DNA of 25,263 nucleotides, from IMG/VR virus record IMGVR_UViG_3300028189_000051, positions 1 through 25,263 of that record. One strand, given 5' to 3'. The stretch is from a virus. Below are positions 7,201 to 25,105 of this stretch, in pieces. Within the stretch, counting starts at the first letter, position 1; each line of letters opens with the position of its first letter. The position numbers and the translations under genes are program-made. The notes below the pieces were generated by a model that saw only the letters and a list, made by a program, of their open reading frames with translations, did no database searches and was not told the origin of the DNA.

Positions 7201-8213
7201 TCTACATAAGATTTAGTAGCCGCATGATTTGCCCCCGTAGGTGCGCCACTTAAAGTCAGAAGACCTGTCATGGTGTCCCCGGCTTTAAGAACGTTTAAAC
7301 TTGCTGCTCCTGTTATAGTACCAGTTACATTACCAGTTACATTACCAGTTAAGTCACCGGTTACATCACCAGTTAAGTCACCGGTTACATTACCAGTTAC
7401 ATTACCCGTTATAGCAGCTTCAACTGTACTAGCTACGAAAGTCTCACTTCCCACAGTCCATTTATCTGCACTTTCATCCCACAATAATGTTTTATTAGTA
7501 GAAGTACCTCGTTCAATTTCTATACCACCATCTTGTGATGGAGTACCTGTCTCATTACTGTTAATTAGTACAATATTATCTGCTAAATTAATAGTTTCAG
7601 TATTGATTGTTGTAGTAGTACCACTTACAGTTAAGTTTCCACCTACTGTTAAATTATTAAATGTGGGGTCGTCTGTAGTGCCTACAGCCTGCCCAATAGA
7701 TATTGTAGCAGTAGAACCTTCTGAAGCAGTATGACTAACAGATACCCCTGTACCTGCTGTGACATCTGTCATGTAGTTACCTGTAGTATCTGTACCTAGA
7801 GCAACTGAATTTGCTGCTACTGTTGTAGTAATACTTACATTACCCAAGTCAGTCATAGTAGCTGAACCTGTTACGTCCCCTGTAAGGGATATAGTAGGGT
7901 CATTAACATTAAAATCTAATGTACCATCTGAATCTTCGTAAGTAACAGTAATACCACTTTCAGTATTACTAGAAACCATGCCACCTACTATATCTTGTAC
8001 GTTTTCTGTTGTAGGAGTGAATGTTGCCGGCTTATTAAGTAAAGTATTCCAATCCCCGTAAACGTAGGCTAAAGAATTCCATGCAGTTGTGCCATCTCCT
8101 ACTTTGAATTTATCAGTAGTTGTATTTAGTCCTAACTCTCCTTCTAGTAGAATTGGGTTATTAGAGGTCCAGTTAGTACCGGTGTCTCTTCTAAATTGAA
8201 TTTTTACTGCCAT
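4233..8213 (-). CDS. Giant repetitive tail fibre with Mtd-like N-terminal domain
   Basis: A 1,326-residue fibre. Residues about 1-50 (QFRRDTGTNWTSNNPILLEG, then ELGLNTTTDKFKVGDGTTAW) match the N-terminal domain of major tropism determinant-like phage fibres. A TVSGTTTTINTETI module follows near residue 195, then nine GNVTG-type tetrapeptides near residues 266-301. Next come duplicated DDSHNHVIANVDGLQTALD modules, and two pairs of a 37-residue repeat (SATADQTNAEIKTAYEANAD followed by TNEFSDAEQTKLSGIE) near residues 879-952 and 1170-1243. The C-terminus is SGYATMDDVIAMAIALG. Such repeats are widespread in marine phage fibres and probably form a long trimeric shaft. AGGAGA lies 8 bases before the ATG. 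No C-type lectin or peptidase tip domain was seen. Confidence 0.85.
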   Translation of the reverse strand: MAVKIQFRRDTGTNWTSNNPILLEGELGLNTTTDKFKVGDGTTAWNSLAYVYGDWNTLLNKPATFTPTTENVQDIVGGMVSSNTESGITVTYEDSDGTLDFNVNDPTISLTGDVTGSATMTDLGNVSITTTVAANSVALGTDTTGNYMTDVTAGTGVSVSHTASEGSTATISIGQAVGTTDDPTFNNLTVGGNLTVSGTTTTINTETINLADNIVLINSNETGTPSQDGGIEIERGTSTNKTLLWDESADKWTVGSETFVASTVEAAITGNVTGNVTGDLTGDVTGDLTGNVTGNVTGTITGAASLNVLKAGDTMTGLLTLSGAPTGANHAATKSYVDSVTTAQDLDFQGDTGGALAIDLDSESLTIAGGTGLDSIGSGNTVTINIDSTVATLAGSQVLSNKTLASPVLEGAISGTSIKDEDDLISDSASHLATQQSIKAYVDAQHAAMNELSELTDTVISTPAAGQVLVYDGTNSWDNQTTTIALTGDVSGSANMDASGDVSITATIADDSHNHVIANVDGLQTALDAKADDSTTITAGTGLTGGGTLAADRTFNVDTEWVQDRVGDMFSSNTESGITVTYQDSDGTIDLDVNDPTITLAGDVTGSATMTNLGNVSITATIADDSHNHVIANVDGLQTALDLKAPLASPTLTGTPVAPTAVSNTNTTQIATTAYVQTEITELIGGAPGALDTLNELAQSINDDSSYAATVTTALGTKVATTSAQALSASANAMTISGHTITLNRADGTTDTVTVPDNNTTYTVGDGGLTTNDFTNADHTKLDGIEASADVTDATNVAAAGAVMEADTTTAAMSFVVDEDNMTSDLATKVPTQQSVKAYVDSQVASKDALSELSGTLDDIANGSTYVKSTNDYTGAEKTKLSGIETSATADQTNAEIKTAYEANADTNEFSDAEQTKLSGIETSATADQTNAEIKTAYEANADTNEFSDAEQTKLSGIAASAEVNVQPDWNQATTSVDDYIKNKPNVQYTSAIAEGNSGLVPSVGTSGQFLQYNGSWATPTDTDTDTTYTGGTGINIDGANVITTTAIALTTVQTAASELAQLALTTEEGDVVVRSDENKTYVRNSGTAGTMADFTLLATPTDTVLSVNGDTGAVTVTHDGLSDFVANEHIDWTSDQGATNLHVNNYTNTTYTVGDNGLTEKNFTATLKTKLDGIETSATADQTAAEIKTAYEANADTNEFSDAEQTKLSGIETSATADQTAAEIKTAYEANADTNEFSDAEQTKLSGIDTSADVTDATTVAAAGAVMEADTTTAAMSFVVDEDNLSSDSSTKVPTQQSVKAYVDAHTHSGYATMDDVIAMAIALG
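4483..4704. repeat. Two tandem 111-base repeats in the giant fibre gene (distal pair)
   Basis: Two units, 4483-4593 and 4594-4704, are nearly identical and in frame, each coding one 37-residue SATADQTAAEIK...DAEQTKLSGIE repeat. The same unit occurs as a second pair at 5356-5577. Confidence 0.9.
5356..5577. repeat. Two tandem 111-base repeats in the giant fibre gene (proximal pair)
   Basis: Units 5356-5466 and 5467-5577 are nearly identical and encode SATADQTNAEIK...DAEQTKLSGIE. They differ from the distal pair mainly in one codon block (TNAEIK here, TAAEIK there). Exact 111-base spacing keeps the frame. Confidence 0.9.
6289..6370. repeat. 82-base direct repeat, copy 1 (copy 2 at 6631-6712)
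   Basis: The 82 bases here recur at 6631-6712 with a single mismatch. They encode the same NVSITATIADDSHNHVIANV module, continuing DGLQTALD, in the giant fibre. The copies are 342 bases apart and in frame. Confidence 0.9.
6631..6712. repeat. 82-base direct repeat, copy 2 (copy 1 at 6289-6370)
   Basis: Partner of the repeat at 6289-6370, with one base different across 82. The near-identity at synonymous positions points to recent duplication or gene conversion rather than selection on the protein alone. Confidence 0.9.
7309..7416. repeat. Nine-unit 12-base tandem repeat in the giant fibre gene
   Basis: Nine imperfect 12-base units of the type CCAGTTACATTA (plus strand) encode nine tetrapeptides ending TG: AITG, NVTG, NVTG, DLTG, DVTG, DLTG, NVTG, NVTG, TITG. 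Copy number change here would lengthen or shorten the shaft in four-residue steps without breaking the frame. Confidence 0.9.
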
Positions 8214-8225
8214 TTAATTTATCTC

Positions 8226-9035
8226 CTAACTTAAGTCGAATATAAGGTCAGCGAATCCGCTATCAGAGGAAGTGCTACTTCCCCCATCCATTGTGAAAAA
8301 AGAAACCCCCCAAGATGCGGTGGACCCATTAGTTGTTAAAACTTTTCCAGAGTGCCCCCCTTGACTTGGTAGACTCCCTGTACCTGCAGTTGTGGTGTCT
8401 AACCAAATATCTGAGGTTCCATTATTTACTCTCTTGTACAAAGTATTAGCTGTAATACTATACCATGAGTCTCCTATCAAAGGAGAGGACGGAGCTGTAT
8501 TAGCATCCGTATGAATAGCTCTAGCTTCCCAATTAGTGGTAGTAGAGTTATATCTTAGTATGTTATTATTCGCAACACTTGTGAGGTCTACATCACTGAG
8601 TTCCGACATACTTCCAGCACCTCCGCCATTTGCGGCTAAGGTGTGGGCTGTAGCGTGATTAGTGGCGATACCGGAGGCATTGAATAAAACAAAACCTTTA
8701 TCTGCGGCGCTATACTTAATAGTCACGTCATGTGTGTGAGCAGAAGTAGAACTAGACTTAGATGTAACAGATGTTACAACTCCTGCAATTAAATCTAGAG
8801 CTTGTTGTCCTGTAATTGATACAGAGTGAGCGTGAGAAGGGCTACCCCCAGCTACTAACTGGAAGGTAGGCCCCACGCCTAATTCTACTATACTAGCAAC
8901 TCCAGAGACTTCTTTCTTTACGAATAGTCTACCATCGTTAGTATTTAAGGCTACTTCACCTAAATTAAGGTCACCTACTCCCGGTAATTTACCGGGGGTT
9001 GCAGACCTTTTTAATAGAATCTTTTGGTTAGGCAT
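8226..9035 (-). CDS. Tail fibre protein with shared ILLKR attachment domain
   Basis: A 269-residue protein. Residues 1-52 (QKILLKRSATPGKLPGVGDL, then NLGEVALNTNDGRLFVKKE) form a short N-terminal module also seen in the 726-residue protein (NKILLKRRDGTDTTPTLEFG) and, more distantly, the 1,326-residue fibre (KIQFRRDTG). It probably anchors each fibre to the tail. The middle carries a histidine-rich turn (GGSPSHAHSVSITGQQAL and SAHTHDVTIKY), as in many phage fibre shafts that bind metal ions, and a MSELSDVDLTS segment. The end reads FTMDGGSSTSSDSGFADLIF. The gene lies 6 bases after the 726-residue gene with no strong binding site of its own, so it may rely on translational coupling. Confidence 0.7.
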   Translation of the reverse strand: MPNQKILLKRSATPGKLPGVGDLNLGEVALNTNDGRLFVKKEVSGVASIVELGVGPTFQLVAGGSPSHAHSVSITGQQALDLIAGVVTSVTSKSSSTSAHTHDVTIKYSAADKGFVLFNASGIATNHATAHTLAANGGGAGSMSELSDVDLTSVANNNILRYNSTTTNWEARAIHTDANTAPSSPLIGDSWYSITANTLYKRVNNGTSDIWLDTTTAGTGSLPSQGGHSGKVLTTNGSTASWGVSFFTMDGGSSTSSDSGFADLIFDLS

Positions 9036-9041
9036 ATTAGC

Positions 9042-11222
9042 TTACCAAGTACCGCCGTCAAGAGTGTCCGTAACTTGGAACTCGTATCCACCGCTACCGG
9101 CAGCTTTAACCATTAATAGCTTATCTAGGTCTGCTGCTACTAATGAATCTGGAGTACCGCCTGTATCTCCTACTGCGCTTGCCCAGATCTTATCATAAAC
9201 TTTCTGCCATTGAACATCTCTGTTAATAGTATCACTACCAATTCTAACATGGTTAGCTCTAAAGTCTGCGTAACTATTGATTGTTGTTGCGGACCCTGGG
9301 TTAGTGCTACCTAAGTCGTCAGAAATGATTATCTGGTCTGTAGATTCATCCCATACCATACCACCGTACTTGCGTACAAAAGAACCACCACTAGCAACTG
9401 CTCTAGCCCATGATACTCCGAAATCTGATACTGTAGCTGAGCTTGGAGCGGAGCTTACATCACCCAAGATTAGAATATTATCATCTACTTGAATAGTTTC
9501 TGTGTTAATAGTGGTTGTAGTACCATTAACAGTTAAATTTCCTGCAACAGTTAAAGCGCCTGTCTTAATATCAACATTACCTGATTTATCGATTTCAAAC
9601 TTACTAGTTCCGTAGCCCGTTTGTACTTTAAATAGGTTAGAGTCCCCATAGACCGCTTCACCAGTAGCCGTAGTAGTAGCATTAGAGCTTAATACTAAAG
9701 AACTATTGTTAGTTACAGAATCTACTTCATATGGAACACCATCAATTTTAATAGCATCCCCTGCTACTAACTCAGTATTAAATAAAGTTCCTGTACCACT
9801 TACTGCAGTACTACCTGTAGTTACTGCAACAGTACCTGTTAACGTTACATTTAATCCACCAGTAGAAGTAACTAAAGAATTGATTGTTCCGCCTGTTAAA
9901 ACAACGCCATCAATAGTACCAGAGTCAATATCTACTTTAGTAATGTTAACTTCGCCAGTACCTGCCGGAGTAAGATTAATGTTTCCATTAGCATCAAGAG
10001 AGGTAATAGTATTACCATCAATCTTAATGTTATCTACTTCTACTGCATCAGTAAACTTAGCGTAACCAGCAACTGTGAAGTCTGCATCGCCTGTAGCGCC
10101 ACCTGTATGTGGGAAACTAACATCTGCATCTGAAGCTACTATAATTGCGGAAGTTCCGTCTTGTTTAATATTTACGCCAGTCTTACCATCTACGGTAATA
10201 GCTCCAACACTAGTATTAAAGTTAGAAGCTGCTGCTGCATCTAAACTGATAGTTCCTGTAGTATCTACAAGTATACCCTTTGATCCAGCATCAATATCGA
10301 TTCCACCAGCCGCGTTAGACGCTTGAATTCGTACTGCATCAGCTGCATTTTCACCCCCAGAAATAGATACACTCTTAGTAGTTGCCGTTAGTGCAACGTC
10401 TCCAGCTGAAGAAGTAATATCGATTAATGCTGCTGCATCTACATCTACTCCACCAGTTGAATCAATGTTTATTGCTGAAGTACCTGTACCAGCTGAATTA
10501 ATTTCTACTGTAGTATCTGAATGAGAAGAGTCTGCATGTAATTTAACAGCTCCTGCACTTGATCCTTTACCAGTAATGGTTACCTTATCATTATTTGATG
10601 TAATAGTAACAGCTTTAGCTGATCCTGTAGCATCAATAGATACAGTACCCGCTGAATTAATATCTACCCCTTGAGAGCCAGCACTAATTTCTACACCTGC
10701 TCCGGTAGTATCAGCATCAATTATTACTTTACCTGTACCTGTAGTAATAAGCGTAACTCCGCCATTAGTGCCTGTAGGGGTTAATTTACCCCCGGACCCA
10801 TCAGTTTCTAATTTAATAGAGCCTGTTATAAATCCGTTATTTGCCCAAACTAAGTCTGTACTGTCTTGTACTTTAAGTTGGTCTGTCCATGTACCGCCAT
10901 CTAATGTAGCAATAACTAAATTGCCACCATCTTGGTACATCTTTGTTTTGTCCGCACTATTATCTTCAAAGAATAATGATTGCGATTTTGAAGCACTAGT
11001 GCCTCCAAGAATTATATCTTGAGATACTGTTTGACTACCTGCTACAGTAGATAGAGATAGGAAGGAGCCCTCGCCTGCAATCTCTAGTACACCCCCGCCT
11101 ATAGCGTTGGTACCAATGTATAATTTTTGTACGAGCTGATTCCAACCTAACTCACCAAATTCCAGGGTAGGGGTAGTATCCGTGCCGTCACGACGTTTTA
11201 GTAAAATTTTATTATAAGCCAT
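9042..11222 (-). CDS. Long beta-repeat tail fibre or filament protein
   Basis: A 726-residue protein. The N-terminus (KILLKRRDGTDTTPTLEFGE, then LGWNQLVQKLYIG) is the shared attachment module. Residues about 150-400 are a regular series of short strands (KVIIDADTTGAGVEISAGS, GVDINSAGTVSIDATGS, AITVDGKTGVNIKQDG) of the kind expected for a beta-helix or stacked trimeric shaft. Around residues 455-515 comes a VTTGSTAVSGTGTLFNTEL module, followed by GNLTVNGTTTTINTETIQVD, which is shared with the giant fibre. The C-terminus is YEFQVTDTLDGGTW. AAGGAA lies 5 bases before the ATG. It follows the 246-residue gene by 30 bases in the same unit. Function: structural fibre; receptor unknown. Confidence 0.8.
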   Translation of the reverse strand: MAYNKILLKRRDGTDTTPTLEFGELGWNQLVQKLYIGTNAIGGGVLEIAGEGSFLSLSTVAGSQTVSQDIILGGTSASKSQSLFFEDNSADKTKMYQDGGNLVIATLDGGTWTDQLKVQDSTDLVWANNGFITGSIKLETDGSGGKLTPTGTNGGVTLITTGTGKVIIDADTTGAGVEISAGSQGVDINSAGTVSIDATGSAKAVTITSNNDKVTITGKGSSAGAVKLHADSSHSDTTVEINSAGTGTSAINIDSTGGVDVDAAALIDITSSAGDVALTATTKSVSISGGENAADAVRIQASNAAGGIDIDAGSKGILVDTTGTISLDAAAASNFNTSVGAITVDGKTGVNIKQDGTSAIIVASDADVSFPHTGGATGDADFTVAGYAKFTDAVEVDNIKIDGNTITSLDANGNINLTPAGTGEVNITKVDIDSGTIDGVVLTGGTINSLVTSTGGLNVTLTGTVAVTTGSTAVSGTGTLFNTELVAGDAIKIDGVPYEVDSVTNNSSLVLSSNATTTATGEAVYGDSNLFKVQTGYGTSKFEIDKSGNVDIKTGALTVAGNLTVNGTTTTINTETIQVDDNILILGDVSSAPSSATVSDFGVSWARAVASGGSFVRKYGGMVWDESTDQIIISDDLGSTNPGSATTINSYADFRANHVRIGSDTINRDVQWQKVYDKIWASAVGDTGGTPDSLVAADLDKLLMVKAAGSGGYEFQVTDTLDGGTW

Positions 11223-12127: not shown

Positions 12128-13609
12128 TTAACTCTGAGTACCTACGATGCTACCATCTGTATCCGAAGCAGGGGCTGAGTTTTTCATTCTTAAGTCCCCC
12201 GTAGCATCCACCCATAGGTGATATACCCCAAGAACTAAATGCCCGGTATTATACCCTCCACCATCAATCTCTACCGTACCATCATTTTTAATAGCCATCT
12301 TTTCAGTTGCCGCAGAACTAATTCTCTCGAAATAAGTAGTATCAGTATAATCACTAGTCAAGTCCTCAGTTAAAACTAAAATACTTGAGCTTGTAATAGA
12401 TTGGACTTCTTTTATTTCCCAAGTTCCACCGGCTGATGCTTTAATACGAATTACATCTCCTACCACTATATTACCTGAAGTAAACTTACTATCATGACTC
12501 TGTACTGTATTTAAAGTACCCGCTGCTACTGAGTATTGAGAAGTTGCCCCAAAGTTTACAGCTTCGGAAGCATTTCTGAAAGATGCGTGATCTTCGGAAG
12601 CCATTTTTGTTCCTTGAACAGTTCCGCTTGAGGTTACTTTAAAAGTAGAGACAACATCACTATTTGTAATACTTAAGAGATCAGCAGTATCTGTAGAATA
12701 CTGAGAAATAGAAACTGCAGGTACGGTACTTCCACTTGTAGTTTTTGTTACTGATAATTTTTTACCTTCTAAACTATCACTAACTATAGTGGTATTAAGA
12801 ATGTTAGGGATAGTAATAAATGAAGAAGCTGTAGTATGTGCTATACTTCCGGTAGTAATACTTATGCTCCCTACCTCTATTGAGGTCATTGAAGTCACTG
12901 TAGGGTTAGTAAAAGTACTATTTGATATAGTAACACTATCTAAGGTACCCCCTGTAGCTGCTATGGAACTACTGGCTTGAGTGGCTAAGGTACCTAGTCC
13001 TAGAGCTACTCTAGCACCAGCTGCTGTTGCAGAGCCTGTTCCTCCATATGCCAAGGGTATAGCTACTCCGTTCCAAGCTCCAGAAGTAATAGTACCTACT
13101 GTAGCTAGGTTGGTGGAGCCTACCCAAGAGTTTATAGATACGTTATCTACGTTACCCAGTCCAAGCGCTATCTGTGCGGCGCTTGCGGTAGTTGCTCCAG
13201 TACCCCCTTTAGCTACTGGGATGGCAGTGCCACCCCAACTTCCTACAGTAATAGTGCCTAAAGTAGTTACATTTGATGAGCCTCCCCAAGAGTTTATAGA
13301 TACATTATCAACATTATCCAAACTCCAAGCAGTTTTAGAAGCCGCAATACTTGTAGCCCCTGTGCCTCCTTGTACCTCTGATATAGGGGTAGAGAGAGAA
13401 GTAATAGTACCATTAGTAATGTAAATACTATCAGCTTCTATTTTAGATTGACTAAGTTTTAGTTTTGAGGCATTGCCTTCTCCATCATAAACTATCTGTC
13501 CTGTAGTTGCTGGTAGCCCTGTGCCAGAAGATATAAGAGTAGCTGTTCCTAAGTGCAGTACGTCTTTATAAGTATCTGCAGGTGTTTTATCTTGTAAATT
13601 ATTTGCCAT
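12128..13609 (-). CDS. Tail fibre with three GGTGAT repeats
   Basis: A 493-residue fibre. Three repeats start at residues 81, 135 and 189, exactly 54 residues apart: GGTGATSIAASKTAWSLDNV, GGTGATTASAAQIALGLGNV and GGTGSATAAGARVALGLGTL. The first two continue into DNVSINSW and a TLGTITVGSWGG-type stretch. This is the classic 'GGTGATTaadAr.aLGLg' repeat of phage fibre shafts. The middle (about residues 215-330) is Ser/Thr-rich beta structure, followed by an SSGNIVVGDVIRI-like module. The C-terminus, LVLGVYHLWVDATGDLRM followed by KNSAPASDTDGSIVGTQS, is a tip domain I have seen in marine phage proteins. AGGA lies 7 bases before the ATG. It is the last gene of the tape measure transcription unit. 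Confidence 0.8.
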   Translation of the reverse strand: MANNLQDKTPADTYKDVLHLGTATLISSGTGLPATTGQIVYDGEGNASKLKLSQSKIEADSIYITNGTITSLSTPISEVQGGTGATSIAASKTAWSLDNVDNVSINSWGGSSNVTTLGTITVGSWGGTAIPVAKGGTGATTASAAQIALGLGNVDNVSINSWVGSTNLATVGTITSGAWNGVAIPLAYGGTGSATAAGARVALGLGTLATQASSSIAATGGTLDSVTISNSTFTNPTVTSMTSIEVGSISITTGSIAHTTASSFITIPNILNTTIVSDSLEGKKLSVTKTTSGSTVPAVSISQYSTDTADLLSITNSDVVSTFKVTSSGTVQGTKMASEDHASFRNASEAVNFGATSQYSVAAGTLNTVQSHDSKFTSGNIVVGDVIRIKASAGGTWEIKEVQSITSSSILVLTEDLTSDYTDTTYFERISSAATEKMAIKNDGTVEIDGGGYNTGHLVLGVYHLWVDATGDLRMKNSAPASDTDGSIVGTQS

Positions 13610-14423: not shown

Positions 14424-16958
14424 TTATAATAACTCCTCTATTGTATACGAACGACTCCAATATCCATCTATGTTATGTTTCATAGGGGATATTTTAGCTA
14501 TACGTCCATATATTGTTTGTTTAAATAATTTATGTGCAGGTGCTTTAGTATCTGTATAGATAAGTACATCTCCACTTGATCCTTTTGTTCTATCTAACTC
14601 TAGAGCATTTTCGAAAATCTCCTCTTCAGTTAGATATTTCAAATTAAATTTAACACTCCTATACTTATTAAGAGTATCTACATAGGTCTGACCGCCTAAT
14701 GACCGGGTAATCTTGGATGGATCTTTATATGTTAGAGTCCATCCTCGACTCATGTTTCTTGAAGGCTTCCAGGCCTTCCCTACTACTACACGCCCTACTT
14801 CGAAATAACTAGGGGATGCGGTATCTTGTATGTCTATTTTAATGAACTTAGCGGATACTGCTGTATCTAATAATAGATGTGAGGCGAAAGGTTTATAGCT
14901 TTCTAGTTGCTCTGCAGTAATATTTGTCCCCCATAAGAATACTCCGTAAGGTAGTGTGCCAAAGGAACCCATTGTAGGCCAAACATCCTGCCAATCTGTT
15001 TGGTGTACATAGCTCCATTTATTGACTATATTCCCCCATATACTAACAGTAGTGTTGCCCCAAGTTTTATTCGGCCAAGCCTCCATCTCTGCAGTTAAGT
15101 CTGTAGCAAAACGTACCCGCCATTTAGCGCCCCCAGAAAAGTTATGATTAAGTAAAGATAGGCTATCTATTAACTTCTGCCCTCCAAACTCAATCTGAAT
15201 ACTAGTAGTTTCTTGGTTGCCTTGATGCCCCTCTATAAAGCCGTTGCCGTGCTCCCAGCCCGCTTTAGTTTTATAATAGTACCCATTTCCATAAGGTAAA
15301 CTACTATCCCCAGGATAAGATGCTGTAGCTAGAACGTCATTCAAGGTTAAATGTATATGTCTATTATGTGCGGGGCCAGAAGTTGTATTACCTACACTAA
15401 CTGGGGGGCCCCCAATAACATAAGCTATAGATGTAGTTGGGGGAGTCCAATCTCTAGTAGGGCCACCAACACTTACATTTATTTCATCTCTAAATGTATA
15501 TATTGCTCCTGCGTCTGTTGCACTAACTCCATCCTCATAAGGAGCCCCTGATATAATGATACTGTCTGACGCAGCCATACTTAGCCCAAAATTATCATTA
15601 GCCTCTTCATCAGATGCTTCGACTTTTCGTATCTGTACTAAGTCATTATTGAATATATATAAAGCCCCTGCATCTGTATTACTTGTAGAATCTGATAAAG
15701 GGGAACCTACTACTATATTATTCGGGGATACAGCTACCGAAACCCCAAAATGATCCCCTGCAGTAGGGTCCGAGGGGAATAATTTAGTATAGGCACCTGA
15801 TAGCTCCATATCTAACTTATACGCTCCCCCAGAATCTACATTAGAACCATTATCCATATAAGGAGCTCCTACTACTACTTTACTGTCTGTACATGCTACA
15901 GAGTGCCCAAATTTTGCTCCATCATCTACATCTCCATCTAATACTCCGAAATGGAATTCGGCAAATGCGCCTCCTGCATCTGCTGCTATAAATCTGATAA
16001 CAGCGCCCACAGCTTTATTTACTCCTGCTATAGGTAGTACTCTGTCAGGTTGCCCTACGTATACGTCGCCTCCATTGGAAGCTAAAGAGTACCCCATTTT
16101 ATACGTAGTGCCTTCGGCTCTATAGGTTTGATATACGCCTGCGGGGGTATAAAAATGTACTGTTCCCTGATTTGTTCCTGCGCCAAGGTTTCCATGAGGG
16201 CCGCCAACTGCTATAATATTAGCAGATATTGTTACAGCCCAACCAAAGTTTGACCCCGCACTTCCCGTTGAAGGAAGTAGTTGAGTTTTCTGTACTCCGT
16301 CTATTCCAAATAAATATGCTACCCCAATATCTACTAGAGGAGACCCCCCACTATACAAAGTGGCATTAGGAGACCCAACAATTATTTGGGATTCGTGTAT
16401 AGCTACTGACCACCCAAACTTTGCTCCCGTCTCCGGGGTAGTAGGGACTATTTTTCTAATAAAAGTGCCATCTATATTGTATAAGTATACGGCTCCTGCT
16501 CCTGAGGATACTCCTGGGGCTCCTACTACAATATAGTTTCCATAAGTAGCTACAGAGTACCCAAAATGATTACTTGCTACAGCTCCCCCATCTTCCGTAA
16601 ATTTCTCTTCTCCACTCCCGCTAAAGTATCTGCTAATAACTTGCCAAATCTCTGCTACTGAATCATCGATGTCTGGCATAATCTTTATTACACGAGTAGT
16701 AGAATTGGAGCTACCAGTGCTTGTAAAAGTGAAACGAGCTGCAGTAGCTGAGGTTTCCCCTAACTCTATCCAGTCAGCAGTTGTTGGGTTACTTACTATA
16801 TGCAGGCCGCCATTAGCCGCCTGATCCCCAGTACGCCATACTTTTGTAATCTGTCTATCCTTTAGATTACCTGAAAGTAATGTAGACGCTTCAGACTCTG
16901 GTAGAATATAAGTATCTGAGCTATCTAAATAGTTATCACCAATAATAGCTAAACTCAT
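14424..16958 (-). CDS. Tail-tip protein with inserted seven-repeat FG-GAP propeller
   Basis: An 844-residue protein of clear mosaic structure. Residues 1-105 contain NLKDRQITKVWRTGD and a TRVIKIMPDIDD strand pair. Residues about 118-497 hold seven FG-GAP type repeats, each with an FG(x)S(V/M)A-like strand, a VVGAP/VVGSP strand and a GAxYxF strand, often preceded by acidic turns such as DVDDGAKFG. This is the number needed for a closed integrin-like propeller. Residues about 520-735 look like a discoidin-type module (LIDSLSLLNHNFSGGAKWRV; YFEVGRVVVGKAWKP), and the end, YWSRSYTIEELL, is typical of phage tail-tip proteins. A strong GGAGGT site and an ATGA overlap link it to the 622-residue gene. 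The propeller probably projects from the tip and contacts the cell surface. Confidence 0.75.
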   Translation of the reverse strand: MSLAIIGDNYLDSSDTYILPESEASTLLSGNLKDRQITKVWRTGDQAANGGLHIVSNPTTADWIELGETSATAARFTFTSTGSSNSTTRVIKIMPDIDDSVAEIWQVISRYFSGSGEEKFTEDGGAVASNHFGYSVATYGNYIVVGAPGVSSGAGAVYLYNIDGTFIRKIVPTTPETGAKFGWSVAIHESQIIVGSPNATLYSGGSPLVDIGVAYLFGIDGVQKTQLLPSTGSAGSNFGWAVTISANIIAVGGPHGNLGAGTNQGTVHFYTPAGVYQTYRAEGTTYKMGYSLASNGGDVYVGQPDRVLPIAGVNKAVGAVIRFIAADAGGAFAEFHFGVLDGDVDDGAKFGHSVACTDSKVVVGAPYMDNGSNVDSGGAYKLDMELSGAYTKLFPSDPTAGDHFGVSVAVSPNNIVVGSPLSDSTSNTDAGALYIFNNDLVQIRKVEASDEEANDNFGLSMAASDSIIISGAPYEDGVSATDAGAIYTFRDEINVSVGGPTRDWTPPTTSIAYVIGGPPVSVGNTTSGPAHNRHIHLTLNDVLATASYPGDSSLPYGNGYYYKTKAGWEHGNGFIEGHQGNQETTSIQIEFGGQKLIDSLSLLNHNFSGGAKWRVRFATDLTAEMEAWPNKTWGNTTVSIWGNIVNKWSYVHQTDWQDVWPTMGSFGTLPYGVFLWGTNITAEQLESYKPFASHLLLDTAVSAKFIKIDIQDTASPSYFEVGRVVVGKAWKPSRNMSRGWTLTYKDPSKITRSLGGQTYVDTLNKYRSVKFNLKYLTEEEIFENALELDRTKGSSGDVLIYTDTKAPAHKLFKQTIYGRIAKISPMKHNIDGYWSRSYTIEELL
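15468..16607 (-). other. Seven FG-GAP repeats (beta-propeller domain)
   Basis: Within the 844-residue protein. The repeat cores read HFGYSVA...VVGAPG, KFGWSVA...IVGSP, NFGWAVT...AVGGP, KMGYSLA...YVGQP, KFGHSVA...VVGAP, HFGVSVA...VVGSP and NFGLSMA...ISGAP. The fourth is the most degenerate. Repeat length is about 50-58 residues. Confidence 0.8.
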
Positions 16959-18823
16959 CCCCAGACCTCCATAGTTACCTCATTCTTTAAAGCATCTTCT
17001 TTTAATGATACAATTCTCATATTTTTTCCATCAGTTAATCCATACCGGTCAATTTTAACCATTATAGTATCGTTTAAATCTAACCCAAAAGGTTGTATTT
17101 TTACTTTTAAAACAAATAAATCTCTTTTTATTCCGTACAATTCCTGTCTACGCTTAGCTTCCTCGTGCCCCATACAGTTACAGGTTAAGTAAGTGTCTAC
17201 CTTCTCCCCATCCGCCGCAAGCAAATGCTTAGTAATAACTGTAGGGTCTTCAAATTTTTCATCTATAAACTCTTCTTCTAGTCTATACTTATACCCATTA
17301 TCACTTAATACTGCTCCTGCCATATCTCCTTCAGAGAATACTTTCCAGTGTTTTCTAGTTCCTATAGTTTGAGAAATAGAGGGGATACCTGTAGATCTTC
17401 TACTTATACTTCTTATTTCTACTTCAGTGAAGGTTTGAACGGGAGTAACTTCAGGCTCGGTCAATGCACCTAATACCATTTTCCCCGAGCGATCAAAAGT
17501 GTAAAACGCCCCCATAGATGATACCAGTGAGTCTAAAATATTAAGAATATTTTCTCCTTCCGGAACATAATACCCATGTATTCCATACTCGATTGCTGTA
17601 GTTGCTCTACTAAATGTACTAAAGGAATCAGTGTTTATATCGGTTAATTGTAGTCCACCTTTTGTCGAAATTATTCTTTTTACAATGCCCCCTAATGAAG
17701 AATCGTAAGTGGCTACAGCAGTAGAAAAAATATCTACTTCTTTAGACCCTTTAACATCTGCTGTTATTACATAATCTGCAGAAGACCCTCCCCCTACTGC
17801 TGCTGTAAGTGTAAACTTACCATTAGCTAAGTCTTCTGTAATACCTGTAGTAGTCCACGTCCCCATATCAGTTTCGCAATCAAAAGCATTGGTGTACGCG
17901 GGAGTTTTTATTATACTACAGCTACCCAGCTGGTTCCCCCCAGAGTACACGGCATCAATACTCTCTATTGGACCGTTGTGTACCTGGAAAATTCTATTGC
18001 TAGGGTCTACTTCTATTGGCTCGATGTGGGATACTTCTCCATAACATACGGGCTTTATCTTATTTTTTAATCTATCTGCCCCGTTGCTATGATCGAATAT
18101 TGTATAGATAGATGTAGCATCTGGAATATCTACCCAAGGGGTAGTGCTTTTAATTGTAGCATACTTAGAGGTACCATCATACTCATCAATTTTTCTCTTT
18201 TGTCCATAACCTTTTCCACCTGTAATCTCAAGATCCATATTACGATAGTAATGGTCCGTTGTGCTAGAACTTGGGTCTAGAATTATTAATGCAGTCCCTC
18301 CTCCTTGAGCCCTCTGATTCCAGGCTATTGAAGTTCCTACATAAACTTCTTCTTCAATAGGCTTATCTAATTTGTGTTGAAAATCCCTAATTTTTATTAG
18401 TACTTCAACAGCAGACCATTCAATTTGATCCATTGTACCTACAAAGATATTAAAAAAAGTATCGTAAGAGGAACCATCCCCAATCTTTACTTTAATATCT
18501 CTACCATTTAAACTGTAGTCGTTTAAAAAATCTAAATCTCCATCAGTATTCATTAATTTAATAGTACCAAAAGAGGGAATACTTCTTCCGCCTATGCTTC
18601 CAGGAGAGTACATATTTCTAGACATACTAAGGGCCGACTTAACTCTAGACTCATAGTATGTATTAGCAGGAGTATCTGTAGGGCTTGTAGTAAAACCCCC
18701 TGTAGAATAGTATAACGTTTCCAGTTTTTCCGTTGCTAGGTTATACGCGTCTAACTCTATTAAATAGTTCCTTTTAGCATACGCGTCCTGTAAGTACGCT
18801 AATTGAGTAGTTATTAAGGCCAT
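16955..18823 (-). CDS. Distal tail / hub-like protein (Dit-Tal type)
   Basis: A 622-residue protein directly after the tape measure gene, where siphovirus distal tail and hub proteins are encoded. The N-terminal part (YLIELDAYNLATEKLETLYY; IPSFGTIKLMNTDGDLDFLN; DYSLNGRDIKVKIGDG; EVLIKIRDFQHKLDKPIEEE) reads like a distal tail or baseplate ring protein. Residues about 380-520 (EGENILNILDSLVSSMGAFY, then FDRSGKMVLGALTEPE) resemble a gp27-like hub. The C-terminus is LNDTIMVKIDRYGLTDGKNM, then RIVSLKEDALKNEVTMEVWG. There is no visible peptidase motif. The ATG follows the tape measure stop with no gap, and the stop overlaps the tail-tip gene as ATGA. The assignment rests on position and pattern, and the split between Dit and hub roles is not certain. 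Confidence 0.65.
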   Translation of the reverse strand: MALITTQLAYLQDAYAKRNYLIELDAYNLATEKLETLYYSTGGFTTSPTDTPANTYYESRVKSALSMSRNMYSPGSIGGRSIPSFGTIKLMNTDGDLDFLNDYSLNGRDIKVKIGDGSSYDTFFNIFVGTMDQIEWSAVEVLIKIRDFQHKLDKPIEEEVYVGTSIAWNQRAQGGGTALIILDPSSSTTDHYYRNMDLEITGGKGYGQKRKIDEYDGTSKYATIKSTTPWVDIPDATSIYTIFDHSNGADRLKNKIKPVCYGEVSHIEPIEVDPSNRIFQVHNGPIESIDAVYSGGNQLGSCSIIKTPAYTNAFDCETDMGTWTTTGITEDLANGKFTLTAAVGGGSSADYVITADVKGSKEVDIFSTAVATYDSSLGGIVKRIISTKGGLQLTDINTDSFSTFSRATTAIEYGIHGYYVPEGENILNILDSLVSSMGAFYTFDRSGKMVLGALTEPEVTPVQTFTEVEIRSISRRSTGIPSISQTIGTRKHWKVFSEGDMAGAVLSDNGYKYRLEEEFIDEKFEDPTVITKHLLAADGEKVDTYLTCNCMGHEEAKRRQELYGIKRDLFVLKVKIQPFGLDLNDTIMVKIDRYGLTDGKNMRIVSLKEDALKNEVTMEVWG

Positions 18824-21800
18824 TTATGCTCTACTATACTTCATACTAGTAGACATTCTTTCCACTGAGGAACCAAATTCTTCATTACTATTCCTAAGTT
18901 CTACTATTTCCGCTTTTAAACCTATAATAGCATCTTGCATCTCCTCTCTTTCTTGAGAGCTAGTATTAATAGATACTTGCATTAAGGAGGCTTGCTGCTC
19001 TTTAAAGGCTTTTAATTCTTCTACCATAGGAGAGTTATTCTGAAGGACTGGAATACTAGTTCCATCTGGTAAAGGCACCACTGCTTCATTATACCTACCT
19101 TCTCCGATTAAACCCATTGTAGGGTTACTAACTATACCCCCAGAAGCAAAAGCTCTGAAGCCCCCTGATATTACTCCACCATTAGCAAAGCCCATTAAAG
19201 CACGGAAATCTTCTAACATCTTTAAGGCCCAGTCTCTATCTTTCATGAACTCGCCGACTCCACCAAACATAGACTTAGAAAGATCTATAAAGCTACTCAT
19301 AGTTTCCGCTAACTTTTCTCCTGCTTTAACGTTCCCTGCCATAGCGTCTGCAGCCAATTTCTCCGCTTCTGTCTTAAAGTGCCCATATTTATCTGCGTCT
19401 GTAAGGGAAGATAACTCTCCGTATTTCATCTCATCAATAAGACCAATAATGTCACCAAAAGCGTCTTTTAAATCGTCTGCAGAGTTAGTCATATCACCAA
19501 ATGCTTCGCCTAAGCGGATCATAGTAGCTAGTTTATCTGGATCATCAAAGAATCCAGTACCTAACTTAGACTCGTACCAAGTTCTAAAGTCATCAACACT
19601 AGTACCTGCTGCTAGTCCTAATTCTGAAAGGCCTGTACCTACTCTATTTTTGGCACTATCAAGAGCGAACTTTGCTAACTCGCCCTCACCGTATATAGCT
19701 TTAGAAAATTTCTCTAAAGAAGTTAAGAGACCTTTAATATCTCCGAAGCCACCTTTTTTAGATTTTAGAACGTTTTGCTGCCAATCTAATATATCTTCGA
19801 TTCCTGTAGCACTTAAGAAGTCTCCAGTAGTTAGCCCAATTCTATCGAAAGCTTGTTTAAACCCAAGCATATCACGATACACTCTAGATAAAGCCTCTAA
19901 GTACTCTTCTCCTGCGTATCTCCATTGTTCTACTGCGGGAATCATTTTCAAAGTAATATCATTAGCAATAGCGGATAAAGCGTTCTGTACTGCAGACGCT
20001 TGCTCCTCTGGACTTAAATCCTTTAAGTCTATATCTTGTACCGCTATTTCAAAATCTCTTAAGTTATCAATTAAGGCACTTCTAGCGTAACCTAAGTCCT
20101 CTCCTAGAGATAATACTGCGTCTCCAATATCAAATAATGTTTTAGCGAAAGAATTCTCTGCATCAGTATCAAAGTCTTTCCAGTTAGTTGTAGTAGAAGA
20201 ACTAGTGCCTCCGCCGAAACCTAAGAAGCCAGACTTAGTAGTAGTAGATTTAATCTTTTCCCATACTTTTAACTCTAAGTTTGCCCAAGAGCCTGCGTCT
20301 AGGTCAATTACATCTGCTAGTTTCTGGGCAACAATTTGAATACCTGCACCCATTAACTCCGTAGTAGTAGACTTACCTCCAAACAACCCTAAGAAAGCTG
20401 GTTTAACTGTTGTACCGAACCAATCTCCGAATACAGTTTCCATATCACCAATACTAAATGTACCTATGCCACCTAACGCCTGCATGCCTTTAATAATGTC
20501 AGTAGATAGTTTAGTCATACTATCATCAATTGAACGGAGGGCGTATAATACGTCCCAACCTTGTTCAAATGCTTTTATTTCAATTTCTTCAATATTAGCA
20601 AGAGCAGTCTTTAATGAATCTGCTTTTTCTTCAGGAGTCTCCAATGTCGCCGAGCTGCTGACCCTTTGGGTCTTTGGCGCAGCTGTACTAACTGATTTTC
20701 CGCCTCCGCCTAGTGCAGACATTGCTGCAAAAATAGCTAAACCTGTGGCAATTTTAGTATACGGGTTAGGGTCCTTGGCTGCTCCATCTGCGGCTGCTTC
20801 TGCTGCTTTAGGTAAAAGAGCTGCTAATGATTGTGCCATCTCTGCTGCCATCATAGCCATTTTTGCTAAATGCATCGCTTTTTCTATGGCGTGGAAGGCT
20901 TGCTGGGCCTTAGATCCCTCTTCCATCATATCACCCATACCACCAAACATGCCAGCAGCAGCACCTAGTTTCTCTTGGGCCTCTGCACTAGCTAATTTAG
21001 CGCTCTTTTTAGATTTAGCTTCTTCAAATTTTTCGAAAGAGAAATTTAGTCCCTCTGCTTTATCAAAATATTCTTCCTCAAAGTCCCCCATTACTTTAGT
21101 TCTACGTTTAGCCTGCTTAGCACCTAAGGTACTAAAAGACTGGAAGGCGGAGGTCATCTTACCTAGACCTTTAAGCTGCGTCATACCTACTTTCTCTGCG
21201 TAGCTCTCCCAGTGCATAGCCATAATATCAACAGTGCGTTGGTTTTCTTCAATTAACCAAACATTAAGCTCTGTCATAGTTTCTTTTTGAGCTTCAGCCC
21301 CTGGAGTACCTTCAAGCCCCCCATTTAGTCCTGCGTCTCCTGTTGCCGTTCCTGTATTGGCCAATACAGTAGGGGTGCCAAATGAGTTTACTTCTGTAAA
21401 AGTGCCTCTATTATCTGGTACAACATACTCCTGGGCCCCAGAACTAAGTTGTTCAGGGCCTTCTTTAGCCTTGTCAATATGAGCTTGTATAAGCCCTAAG
21501 TGCTTTTCATATTCAGCCGTTTGTTCTTTTAATCTGTCGGTTACAATTTCTTGGTATTCTTTAATTGCTTTAGTAGAAGCTTCTTGGTCTGCATAAATAC
21601 TACCCGCTTCTACAGCAAATAAATCATCGGCTAAAGAATCTCCTGAAATCCCCTTTTGAAAGGCTTTAACCCTTTTAAATACGTCATCTGCCCCGGAGGC
21701 ATCTACCATAGCCTGCTTTTGCTTTAGCTTTAAGATTTCTTTCTCTGCTGCGTGCCTAGCATCTAGTACTTTTGTTAGCTGCTCGGCTTGCTGTACTTCA

Positions 21801-24800
21801 ACTTGGGCTGCTTTTACTAAACTCTTTTTATGGGATACTTGACCTTCTAAGTCCTTTTTTGTTACCCCCTCACTAGGGGCCTTTGCTTGTAACTCAACTA
21901 ATTCTTTCGCTAATACTAATTCGAGTTTGCGTTTACTAACTAGATCTCTGTTATTCTTATTTAGTGTTGTAGCCTGGGATAGCTCTAGTTTCTGTATATC
22001 CAGTTTACCCAAAGCTTGTTGGTGAGCTATTTTTCCAACTAAGGTATCCTCTTTACTTATGTCTAGTAAAGACTTTTTGAACCCTATCTGAGTACTAACC
22101 TCTTTACTAGCTAATTCTACCTGCTTTAAATATAAAGCACTTTCAGCATTCCAAGCTTCTAAATCCACTCTAATATCAGAAGTTGTTATAGCTAAACGGT
22201 TATACTGTCGTACTATATTGGCAATGAGTGCCTTCTGTGCCTTATACTCAGGAGTCTGGGAGTCTTGCATACTATTTAATTTAGTTACTGCCAGCTGTCT
22301 CTGGGTAGCTAAATTATCTAAGTTTAGTTTATTTATACTCTGTTGTAGTTCAAAGTGCCCCGCTAGTGCAAGGTTACTGTCTTTTATTAATTTAAAGTCT
22401 TGCTGTCTTCCCTTAGATACCTCTAGGCTTACCTTGTTATCTCTTACTCGAGTTTGTAGTAGGGAAATTTCTGCATAAAACTCTTTTACTTTTTTAATAG
22501 CTCCTACAACAGGATCTACTATCCCATAAGCTTTCGCGATGGTAGCTACAGTCTTAGAAACTAAAGAGTCCTTTTCTGCAGTTAACTTACTTATTTGCTT
22601 TCTACCTGCGGCTTGAGCATTCTTACTCATCTCTGGAGTAACTAACTGTGCAATTTTTTTATTGTGCTCTACTTCAATACTCTGAATTACAGCACTAGAG
22701 GCATAAGCTATTTGCTCCATGCCTGCAATATACTCTTTCTTGGCCTTATCCAGGGAGGCTTGGTCTACCCCCACTACTAAGCGAGCAGACGCGGTCATGT
22801 TATCAATAGTAGATAACATTTCGGTCATAGATAGTACCCCGTCCTCAGATAACTTATTAATTTTACTTGTTGCAATATCTAAGTCCTGCACCATCTTATC
22901 GAAAGGTGTCTTGACTTTAAACTCATCCCCAAATTTCTTAAAGTTATCTGAGAACGACTTAAAGGTACTAGCTAAGCTCTCAAGCTGCCCTTGCATATTT
23001 TTCTGTTTTCTAGACTGCTCGTCTAGTAAAGGGCCTAAATCCTTCAGCATGTTTGCGAAGGCATCAGGGTTTTTCTCTAAATTAGCTACTAAAGTGCTTA
23101 AGTTTAGGTTATTTTTTGATAAAGCTGTATCTATTGCCTTATTAACCCCTGCGTCACCTAATTTTTTATAGGTCTCTAAAAGGTTCTTAATGTCAGTAGC
23201 GTTACTTTTTAAATCTGTAATACTTAGGCTACCTAAGTCGAAATTCTTTAAGGCGGTCGCTGCGTCATCTGCTTGACTCTTAAAGTCTTTCAGTAAGTTG
23301 CCTATTACCTCATGTTTATGTATATAGTCTGATGAAGTGCTAAGTCCAGCCTTCATGAAGTCATTGTACTTGGCCTGTGCTTTAGTAGCGTTTTCTAAGT
23401 TAGAGGCTATAGTATCGAAGGCGCTGTCTACGGCTTTTGAACCTTTATTTAGTAGGCCCAACCATTCCCCAAATTCAACTATGTAGTCCCCTACAAACGC
23501 CATAATAGTTAGTATCCACGTAGCAATTTTACCTACTTTACCTAAACCTTTTCCAATTGCCCCCATAGCGCTCATACTAGCTTGTTTAAGTCTAGATATA
23601 CCCTGCTGTACTGAGGCTAAAGCTACCACAGCTTGCTTTTTCATTCCTGTCCAAGACTTCCACCAAACACCTTCGATATGCTTAATTACTTTTACCTGGG
23701 CCTTCTCATAGCTCTTCATTTGGGTTCTAAGAGCTAGGAACTGTTTTTTTGTTACATTAGGGAACTGCTTAGTAAAGGCTTGAAAAGCTTTCTTAGTATC
23801 TTTTTGCCCCAACCTTAAACGTTTTTTCATCTGAGTAATATAAACTTTTGCGTCACCCTTAGCTAAGTCTTTCATAGACTTAGAGTCCGGCTTAAGGGCT
23901 ATACCTGCAGTAATTGCCGAGGACTGCAAAGACTTCTTAGCCTTTGAAGCCTCAGCTTCTTTAACTTTCCTTAAAGCCGCAGATTTTCGGTCCAGAGCTG
24001 CTGTGGTAGCTTTTACTCTATCAGCATAGGCGGCTTCTGACTTAGTAATCTTTTCCGCCATTGTTTTACCAAAATCATTAAGGGCGGGCATGGCTTTTTT
24101 AGCTAAGAACGTAGTCATTACTGCAAAGCCTGCTACTAAAGCCATTTTATTATTTGCAAAGAAATTAGCTATAGGGCCGAGGCCTTTATTAATTAGCTCT
24201 AGTATTTGGAAAGACAGATCCGCCACTTCACTAGCCAGCCTATTAAAAGGGTTAGTCTCTAACTTATCATTCAGCTCCCCATACTTTCTAATACCTTGAT
24301 CAATTGTTTCATTAGCAAAAGCTTGTTGTTTTTCGTAGGCAGTTAGTTCCGTTACTTTCTTACCAATTGTTTTAGCATACTTCCTAGAAGCTTCATCTAC
24401 TCGTACAATTAGGCCTAATTCGTCTAAAATTTCAGGCTCCAGCTTTACAACACCTCGAGTCAATCTATCTACAGCGTCCCCAACATCTCTGCCTAAGGCT
24501 AGTGCGGCTCCTCGAGCTACCTTACCTAAGTCTTTAATCTTATCCCCTGTCATTCCCGCAGAAGACGCAAAAGCTACCGTACGCATTGCTTCCGCAGTAC
24601 TTACTGCGGCACCTGTTACATCTCTAAAGTCTTTCGCCATTAACTTCAGGTTATTACCCGAAGTTGCTCCCATCTCTTCTAGGCCTCGGATCATAGTAGA
24701 GGTATCCATAGCACCTTTCAGTATTTCGAAAGCAGCACTTAACGCAAATGCATGAGCAGCTAAAGTAGCATATACGTGAATGAAGCCACCCATTCCGGCA

Positions 24801-25105
24801 GCCATATTACCCATATCTTTCCCGGCCTTTCCAGAAGACCCTGAGATGCCACGATTTGAGTTATATACCTTACCCGCAGAATCATTATAGTCTTTATTAG
24901 CTTTAGTACCCTCTTTAGTAGCTTTAGTGTTCTTTTTTGTATTCTTAGAAGTGTCCTTCCCTGGAGCGCCCGCTCCCGATCCGCCCCCTATGCCTACCGT
25001 TTTAGACCCGATATTATTTAAGACTTTCTCAAGTTCCTTAGCTGTCGCCAGTACTTCTTTTAACCCTTGGTCGGTAACTTTGATTACTACGGACTTCTCT
25101 GCCAA
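18824..25105 (-). CDS. Tail tape measure protein
   Basis: A 2,093-residue protein with a TTG start, chosen because AGGAGA lies about 7 bases upstream and no ATG start exists upstream in the frame. Residues about 130-270 match the tape measure N-terminal pattern (MRTVAFASSAGMTGD; ILDELGLIVRVDEASRKYAK). Hydrophobic segments lie near 101-133, 308-340, 515-545 and 1405-1475, with long coiled-coil stretches between. Near 1970-2022 is the C-terminal signature FANGGVISGGFRAFASGGIV, then MGLIGEGRYNEAVVPLPDG, followed by a coiled-coil end. It sets tail length and probably enters the cell envelope during DNA delivery. At about 0.15 nm per helical residue the length would suggest a tail of very roughly 300 nm, an inference only. 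It is the first gene after a perfect promoter. Confidence 0.92.
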   Translation of the reverse strand: MAEKSVVIKVTDQGLKEVLATAKELEKVLNNIGSKTVGIGGGSGAGAPGKDTSKNTKKNTKATKEGTKANKDYNDSAGKVYNSNRGISGSSGKAGKDMGNMAAGMGGFIHVYATLAAHAFALSAAFEILKGAMDTSTMIRGLEEMGATSGNNLKLMAKDFRDVTGAAVSTAEAMRTVAFASSAGMTGDKIKDLGKVARGAALALGRDVGDAVDRLTRGVVKLEPEILDELGLIVRVDEASRKYAKTIGKKVTELTAYEKQQAFANETIDQGIRKYGELNDKLETNPFNRLASEVADLSFQILELINKGLGPIANFFANNKMALVAGFAVMTTFLAKKAMPALNDFGKTMAEKITKSEAAYADRVKATTAALDRKSAALRKVKEAEASKAKKSLQSSAITAGIALKPDSKSMKDLAKGDAKVYITQMKKRLRLGQKDTKKAFQAFTKQFPNVTKKQFLALRTQMKSYEKAQVKVIKHIEGVWWKSWTGMKKQAVVALASVQQGISRLKQASMSAMGAIGKGLGKVGKIATWILTIMAFVGDYIVEFGEWLGLLNKGSKAVDSAFDTIASNLENATKAQAKYNDFMKAGLSTSSDYIHKHEVIGNLLKDFKSQADDAATALKNFDLGSLSITDLKSNATDIKNLLETYKKLGDAGVNKAIDTALSKNNLNLSTLVANLEKNPDAFANMLKDLGPLLDEQSRKQKNMQGQLESLASTFKSFSDNFKKFGDEFKVKTPFDKMVQDLDIATSKINKLSEDGVLSMTEMLSTIDNMTASARLVVGVDQASLDKAKKEYIAGMEQIAYASSAVIQSIEVEHNKKIAQLVTPEMSKNAQAAGRKQISKLTAEKDSLVSKTVATIAKAYGIVDPVVGAIKKVKEFYAEISLLQTRVRDNKVSLEVSKGRQQDFKLIKDSNLALAGHFELQQSINKLNLDNLATQRQLAVTKLNSMQDSQTPEYKAQKALIANIVRQYNRLAITTSDIRVDLEAWNAESALYLKQVELASKEVSTQIGFKKSLLDISKEDTLVGKIAHQQALGKLDIQKLELSQATTLNKNNRDLVSKRKLELVLAKELVELQAKAPSEGVTKKDLEGQVSHKKSLVKAAQVEVQQAEQLTKVLDARHAAEKEILKLKQKQAMVDASGADDVFKRVKAFQKGISGDSLADDLFAVEAGSIYADQEASTKAIKEYQEIVTDRLKEQTAEYEKHLGLIQAHIDKAKEGPEQLSSGAQEYVVPDNRGTFTEVNSFGTPTVLANTGTATGDAGLNGGLEGTPGAEAQKETMTELNVWLIEENQRTVDIMAMHWESYAEKVGMTQLKGLGKMTSAFQSFSTLGAKQAKRRTKVMGDFEEEYFDKAEGLNFSFEKFEEAKSKKSAKLASAEAQEKLGAAAGMFGGMGDMMEEGSKAQQAFHAIEKAMHLAKMAMMAAEMAQSLAALLPKAAEAAADGAAKDPNPYTKIATGLAIFAAMSALGGGGKSVSTAAPKTQRVSSSATLETPEEKADSLKTALANIEEIEIKAFEQGWDVLYALRSIDDSMTKLSTDIIKGMQALGGIGTFSIGDMETVFGDWFGTTVKPAFLGLFGGKSTTTELMGAGIQIVAQKLADVIDLDAGSWANLELKVWEKIKSTTTKSGFLGFGGGTSSSTTTNWKDFDTDAENSFAKTLFDIGDAVLSLGEDLGYARSALIDNLRDFEIAVQDIDLKDLSPEEQASAVQNALSAIANDITLKMIPAVEQWRYAGEEYLEALSRVYRDMLGFKQAFDRIGLTTGDFLSATGIEDILDWQQNVLKSKKGGFGDIKGLLTSLEKFSKAIYGEGELAKFALDSAKNRVGTGLSELGLAAGTSVDDFRTWYESKLGTGFFDDPDKLATMIRLGEAFGDMTNSADDLKDAFGDIIGLIDEMKYGELSSLTDADKYGHFKTEAEKLAADAMAGNVKAGEKLAETMSSFIDLSKSMFGGVGEFMKDRDWALKMLEDFRALMGFANGGVISGGFRAFASGGIVSNPTMGLIGEGRYNEAVVPLPDGTSIPVLQNNSPMVEELKAFKEQQASLMQVSINTSSQEREEMQDAIIGLKAEIVELRNSNEEFGSSVERMSTSMKYSRA

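Follow-up and report, generated by a model that had tools for sequence, protein, structure and literature searches.

A phage tail protein that carries FG-GAP repeats in the number needed to close an integrin-like propeller raises the question of how such a domain came to be there, and what it might do for the virus. The case considered here comes from a viral stretch of 25,263 nucleotides (IMG/VR record IMGVR_UViG_3300028189_000051), referred to below as the window. The initial annotation of this DNA placed a complete propeller at 15468-16607, which corresponds to residues 118-497 of an 844-residue tail-tip protein, and proposed that it had been inserted into that protein. The virus is known from metagenome contigs only. 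The features discussed in the text are collected in Table 1.

Table 1. Features of the tail module and of the 844-residue protein (positions in the window).
Feature	Position	Strand	Evidence
Tail-tip protein gene with FG-GAP propeller, 844 aa	14424..16958	(-)	ORF; phrog_8610 E 1.9e-33; FG-GAP_2 E 2.4e-50
Hub (name used here), 622-aa upstream tail protein, phrog_8917	16955..18823	(-)	ORF, PHROG match
Tail length tape measure protein	18824..25105	(-)	phrog_3779, E 8.9e-48
Tail-fibre-like protein, downstream of the 844-aa gene	12128..13609	(-)	phrog_11393 tail fiber, E 2.5e-7
Ancestral tail-tip start, residues 5-47	16818..16946	(-)	hmmsearch, hhalign
First-layer insert, upstream half, residues 48-112	16623..16817	(-)	alignment; common to the ~471-aa relatives L019, L020, L023, L024
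Predicted seven-bladed FG-GAP propeller, residues ~117-489	15492..16610	(-)	AlphaFold2; PDB structure matches
FG-GAP repeat 1, residues 132-180	16419..16565	(-)	Pfam, motif, viral repeat profile
FG-GAP repeat 2, residues 181-237	16248..16418	(-)	Pfam, motif, viral repeat profile
FG-GAP repeat 3, residues 238-287	16098..16247	(-)	Pfam, motif, viral repeat profile
FG-GAP repeat 4, degenerate, residues 288-349	15912..16097	(-)	motif and strands in model
FG-GAP repeat 5, residues 350-403	15750..15911	(-)	Pfam, motif, viral repeat profile
FG-GAP repeat 6, residues 404-456	15591..15749	(-)	Pfam, motif, viral repeat profile
FG-GAP repeat 7, residues 457-489, completed by N-terminal strand 117-120	15492..15590	(-)	motif, model, viral repeat profile
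First-layer insert, downstream half, residues 498-580	15219..15467	(-)	alignment and minimal-homologue comparison
Remaining ancestral tail-tip protein, residues 581-844	14427..15218	(-)	phrog_8610; hmmsearch i-E 3.5e-61 and 2.1e-9

The tail-tip gene and its propeller

Judged by gene order and annotation rather than by a solved relative, the 844-residue protein is a minor tail protein at the tip of a siphovirus-like tail. The placement follows from the order of the genes, which runs from the tape measure through the hub to this gene and on to the fibres. The tape measure gene lies directly upstream of the hub gene, whose stop overlaps the start of the 844-residue gene by 4 bases; the hub is present in all relatives examined, in the same order of tape measure, hub and tail-tip gene. 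Homologues in Microcystis and Leptolyngbya phages carry the annotation minor tail protein. The C-terminal third of the protein is phrog_8610, with the conserved ~240 C-terminal residues of that family present, and the gene stands where the family expects it, directly after the hub and downstream of the tape measure. The protein exceeds the family length of ~254-295 residues, which is typical of the family and not a strict requirement for membership.

The claim of seven FG-GAP repeats is borne out. The open reading frame is real, and within it FG motifs begin at seven places, residues 132, 181, 238, 288, 350, 404 and 457, seven being the number that closes a propeller. A profile search against FG-GAP families, which the initial annotation had suggested, matched Pfam FG-GAP_2 (PF14312) over six stretches with 169 bits, and in the genome search six places scored above the curated cut-off of 23 bits, as expected of a member of this repeat family. 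Repeat 4 (MGYSLASNGGDVYVGQP), a degenerate copy, scores below the Pfam cut-off and is recognised from its motif and in the structure model alone. A profile made from the propeller repeats of other viruses scored six of the seven repeats at 15-52 bits, whereas 200 shuffled versions of these residues reached 6.4 bits at best.

Full-length alignments that combined scaffold rows with propeller rows placed some repeats wrongly, and the two parts were therefore modelled separately. AlphaFold2, given residues 113-497 and 31 viral relatives, returned an all-beta model (pLDDT 89.8, pTM 0.91) whose top 50 PDB matches were all integrin alpha chains (Z 38.6-40.8); VIA-align to integrin alpha-4 gave a Z of 40.8 over 344 residues with an rmsd of 2.7 Å. 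A closed seven-bladed, integrin-like propeller is thus strongly predicted, in agreement with the fold proposed initially. The last repeat contributes three strands (348-351, 356-360 and 372-377 in model numbering) and the N-terminus adds one (5-8). We read this N-terminal strand, residues 117-120 of the protein, as closing a shared last blade, which fits the strand positions of the model, though it was read without inspection of coordinates; as the strand belongs to the propeller in the model, the domain is taken to begin at residue ~117. The scaffold model was poor (pLDDT 42.7) and was left out of the fold search.

Two layers of insertion

The comparison of close phage relatives, also suggested at the outset, turned up versions of the protein lacking the propeller. 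Four contigs (L019, L020, L023 and L024) have the same gene order as the window and hubs that are 63-69% identical to its hub, and their tail-tip proteins of ~471 residues, ~70% identical to the window protein over the shared columns, are propeller-free. Where these relatives read SGE-VDD-LDIN, the window protein reads SGE-[propeller]-RDEIN; the propeller sits in what is a short acidic linker. No FG-GAP repeats were found anywhere on the four contigs, which are possibly incomplete. These syntenic relatives confirm that the propeller was inserted, and that the insertion is recent relative to the tail-tip family. Propeller-bearing sequences of the phrog_8610 family come solely from near-identical contigs of one virus (three in all, counting the window), and a whole-protein search of viral contigs for relatives with the propeller recovered the same virus alone.

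The history of the scaffold was traced by scanning viral contigs for the hub and reading the gene downstream of each. Among the 54 distinct homologues so obtained (63 members in total), 49 are minimal proteins of 254-295 residues, four carry a first insert (472-473 residues as called in the survey) and one, of 844 residues, carries the propeller. An hmmsearch profile built from the minimal proteins aligns to the window protein in three pieces: residues 5-47 (profile 6-46), 581-623 (44-86) and 648-844 (87-283). In the ~471-residue relatives, the second match of this profile begins at ~210. For the ancestral start, the i-E is 1.6e-6 in the window protein; of the four ~471-residue relatives, one gives 3e-8 and the other three 5.6e-7 to 1.3e-9. 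With hhalign the same start is found with a probability of 97.2% and E 4.7e-11. The segment that separates this start from the rest in the ~471-residue proteins is missing in all 49 minimal homologues.

These alignments indicate nested insertions: a segment of ~165 residues opened an ancestor of ~284 residues at position ~45 in one clade, and the propeller of ~373 residues then entered that segment. The direction would be gain, by parsimony, because all of the more distant homologues examined are without either layer. One part of the initial annotation has to be redrawn accordingly. Residues 1-105 had been described as an N-terminal tail-type module. They are not an independent unit by either hmmsearch or hhalign; the ancestral protein starts at residues 5-47 and resumes at 581, so the supposed module consists of the first ~45 ancestral residues and part of the first insert.

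The discoidin-like part that had also been claimed is plausible, at a level below threshold. F5_F8_type_C matches appear in 3 of 20 minimal homologues (best E 0.019), and this family is not among the Pfam matches of the window protein. The start of the minimal protein has a single PDB match, 4a3z (E 0.69, residues 6-66), which we take to be a CBM32 module. There is thus a hint, in sequence comparisons, that the ancestral protein begins with a beta-sandwich of the discoidin, F5_F8 type C or CBM32-like kind. If this reading is true, both inserts occupy a loop of a carbohydrate-binding-type domain.

The same tail-tip family has been extended differently in Azospirillum phage Cd, whose gp49 (L003:3721-6468) has ~610 additional, unrelated residues before the ancestral start; a Pfam search of this extension gave no match. 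A scan of genome contigs with the ~471-residue family likewise gave no match, hence no link to a host or prophage. As to where the propeller came from, 73 propellers were placed in a tree, in which the window sequence has a very long branch and falls among mostly phage sequences, with one bacterial sequence beside it; the support is weak, the meeting of long branches calls for caution, and no donor is claimed.

FG-GAP propellers in integrins and in other viruses

The window propeller and the integrin alpha chains (alpha-4, alpha-V, alpha-5) both have seven FG-GAP blades, and the predicted fold is alike over the whole domain, with Z ~40. In sequence the likeness is weak: the match to integrin alpha-4 has E 7.5e-4, and identity to integrins is ~20%. 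The integrin chains carry calcium-binding loops of the DxDxDGxxD type between strands A and B, whereas the A-B turns of the window propeller have ~4 residues (for example FGYSVATYGNYIVVGAP) and so leave no room for such loops; a motif of this type was sought after each FG and none was found. The integrin-type family PF01839 is absent from the Pfam matches of the protein, among which only PF14312 appears. Finally, integrin alpha pairs with a beta chain, which is not expected in a phage. The closest propeller sequences found are those of phages, at ~35-39% identity.

By profile the window propeller is a clear member of the bacterial and viral FG-GAP_2 propellers. With a degenerate DNA pattern, FG-GAP repeats were located in at least 65 stretches of viral contigs, of which two belong to the virus of the window; as the pattern favours well-conserved repeats, such counts give minimum numbers, not a census. 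Where the repeats could be counted, seven was the commonest number, the same as in the window. In one contig the propeller is fused to the C-terminus of a neck protein Hc2 (L062:10028-12310, phrog_460 E 6.5e-185), and in others to a baseplate wedge protein (L072), a collar-fibre-type protein (L077) or a major tail/sheath-like protein (L047), or it is part of giant virion structural proteins (L056, L074). Four contigs (L041, L069, L080, L086) have arrays of three or four adjacent stand-alone genes of ~410 residues with seven repeats each, and in the last three of these a tail-fibre-type gene lies directly upstream; the array genes might be tail-fibre tips or adhesins that are swapped as cassettes. 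In view of such fusions, FG-GAP propellers in phage virion proteins are less unusual than had been assumed initially. In BFVD, the propeller matched a virion protein of S-TIM5 and many giant viruses, and the phage records with FG-GAP include Vibrio phage nt-1 and S-MbCM6.

Beta-propellers are also familiar from other phage proteins with an established or presumed host-facing position, including the receptor-binding protein of phi11 with five blades, P2 of PRD1 and gp131C of phiKZ with seven blades (PMC4901313). None of these is described there as FG-GAP or integrin-type, or as having propeller-free syntenic relatives. The FG-GAP proteins of cyanophages and vibriophages (the S-TIM5 family virion protein, the S-MbCM6 baseplate wedge gp8 and the protein of nt-1) do share the repeats, and some are annotated as virion proteins; they are, however, either stand-alone genes or part of the virion in other kinds of phage, and have ~24-30% identity to the window propeller. 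Thus propeller-bearing phage tail proteins and FG-GAP proteins in phages are both known. No other PF14312 propeller was found within a phrog_8610 tail-tip protein. In the literature searched, subscription journals excepted, FG-GAP repeats in phage tails were not described, nor was a comparable insertion into a phrog_8610 tail-tip protein, one with a nested history and with syntenic relatives as controls.

It is tempting to see a broader pattern, one we put forward tentatively and with some doubt: FG-GAP propellers could serve environmental tailed phages as mobile adhesion cassettes, entering unrelated virion proteins and forming arrays behind tail fibres, the integrin-type head being reused repeatedly for cell binding. 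The window would then be a fresh insertion caught together with its propeller-free sisters.

What the propeller may do at the tail tip

For the window protein itself, we consider the following course of events probable. The ancestor was the compact tail-tip protein, probably starting with the discoidin/CBM32-like sandwich. In one clade, the first segment entered a loop of it, and in the lineage of the window a whole propeller then went into the acidic linker inside that segment. With the N- and C-terminal strands lying in one blade, the two ends of the propeller are adjacent, and the domain could be placed in a loop without disturbing the fold around it. The propeller would thereby have added an outward-facing adhesive surface, binding a protein or glycan of the host cell early in adsorption. 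That the propeller is exposed and binds the host, and what sort of ligand it would bind, we infer from the host-facing position, the classical binding-head fold, an insertion site that tolerates extra domains, and the different extension found in phage Cd gp49. The stand-alone propeller genes behind tail-fibre genes in other viral contigs, and the phage propellers known or proposed to bind receptors, fit this reading.

What counts against an adhesive role is the presence of FG-GAP modules away from the host-facing tip, as on the neck protein Hc2, which leaves room for general surface decoration or for a structural role. The missing space for integrin-type calcium loops, the poor scaffold model, which gives no reliable view of exposure and geometry, and the confinement of the propeller to one virus within the family also weigh against a firm claim. 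As decoration, the propeller would be a promiscuous surface domain, like the Ig-like domains of phages, making weak and broad contacts with glycans or extracellular matrix and recognising no specific receptor. The generic nature of the repeat unit and its occurrence on so many unrelated virion scaffolds speak for this view; we nevertheless regard it as unlikely, given that the window propeller is in the tail tip and the arrays elsewhere lie behind tail fibres, both favouring the host-facing end, and that just one of the 54 distinct family members has a propeller.

Less probable still is a structural or assembly role, in which the propeller would serve as a platform for a fibre next to it or make the tip stiffer, with no contact to the host. 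There is precedent for structural seven-bladed propellers in phage tails, as in SU10, where the nozzle propeller lines the channel and is the docking site of tail fibres (PMC9509320), and fibre genes do lie downstream of the 844-residue gene. Yet two of the syntenic relatives, L023 and L024, have the corresponding downstream genes (225-267 and ~495-504 residues) and manage without a propeller. A chimeric contig or other assembly artefact, for which no point in favour was found, can be rejected unless the assemblies share reads, since the two further contigs are 99.9% identical to the window across both junctions, the reading frame is unbroken, and the G+C content of the insert (43%) is close to that of its flanks (40%), so that base composition gives no foreign mark.

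The case gains its interest from how unusually clean the comparison is. A tail tip has gained a whole, foreign-looking binding domain while the gene order stays the same and the scaffold remains ~70% identical with and without it; such a pair makes the effect of one added domain on host choice directly testable.

Some other genes of the window deserve mention. On the minus strand, 1711-2637 encodes a 308-residue protein of phrog_19111, a family of unknown function, with several repeats of ~45 residues (GYTSGG ... DKFSFTSDGNATDVGDLT); it is possibly a second, kelch-like propeller, and it had no Pfam or PDB match. Three consecutive fibre-like proteins are encoded on the same strand at 4233-8213, 8226-9035 and 9042-11222. 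Their starts are similar (KIQFRRDT.., KILLKRSAT.. and KILLKRRDG.., followed by GELG or LGEVALN), and the first of them matches the Major tropism determinant N-terminal domain with E 8.2e-13.
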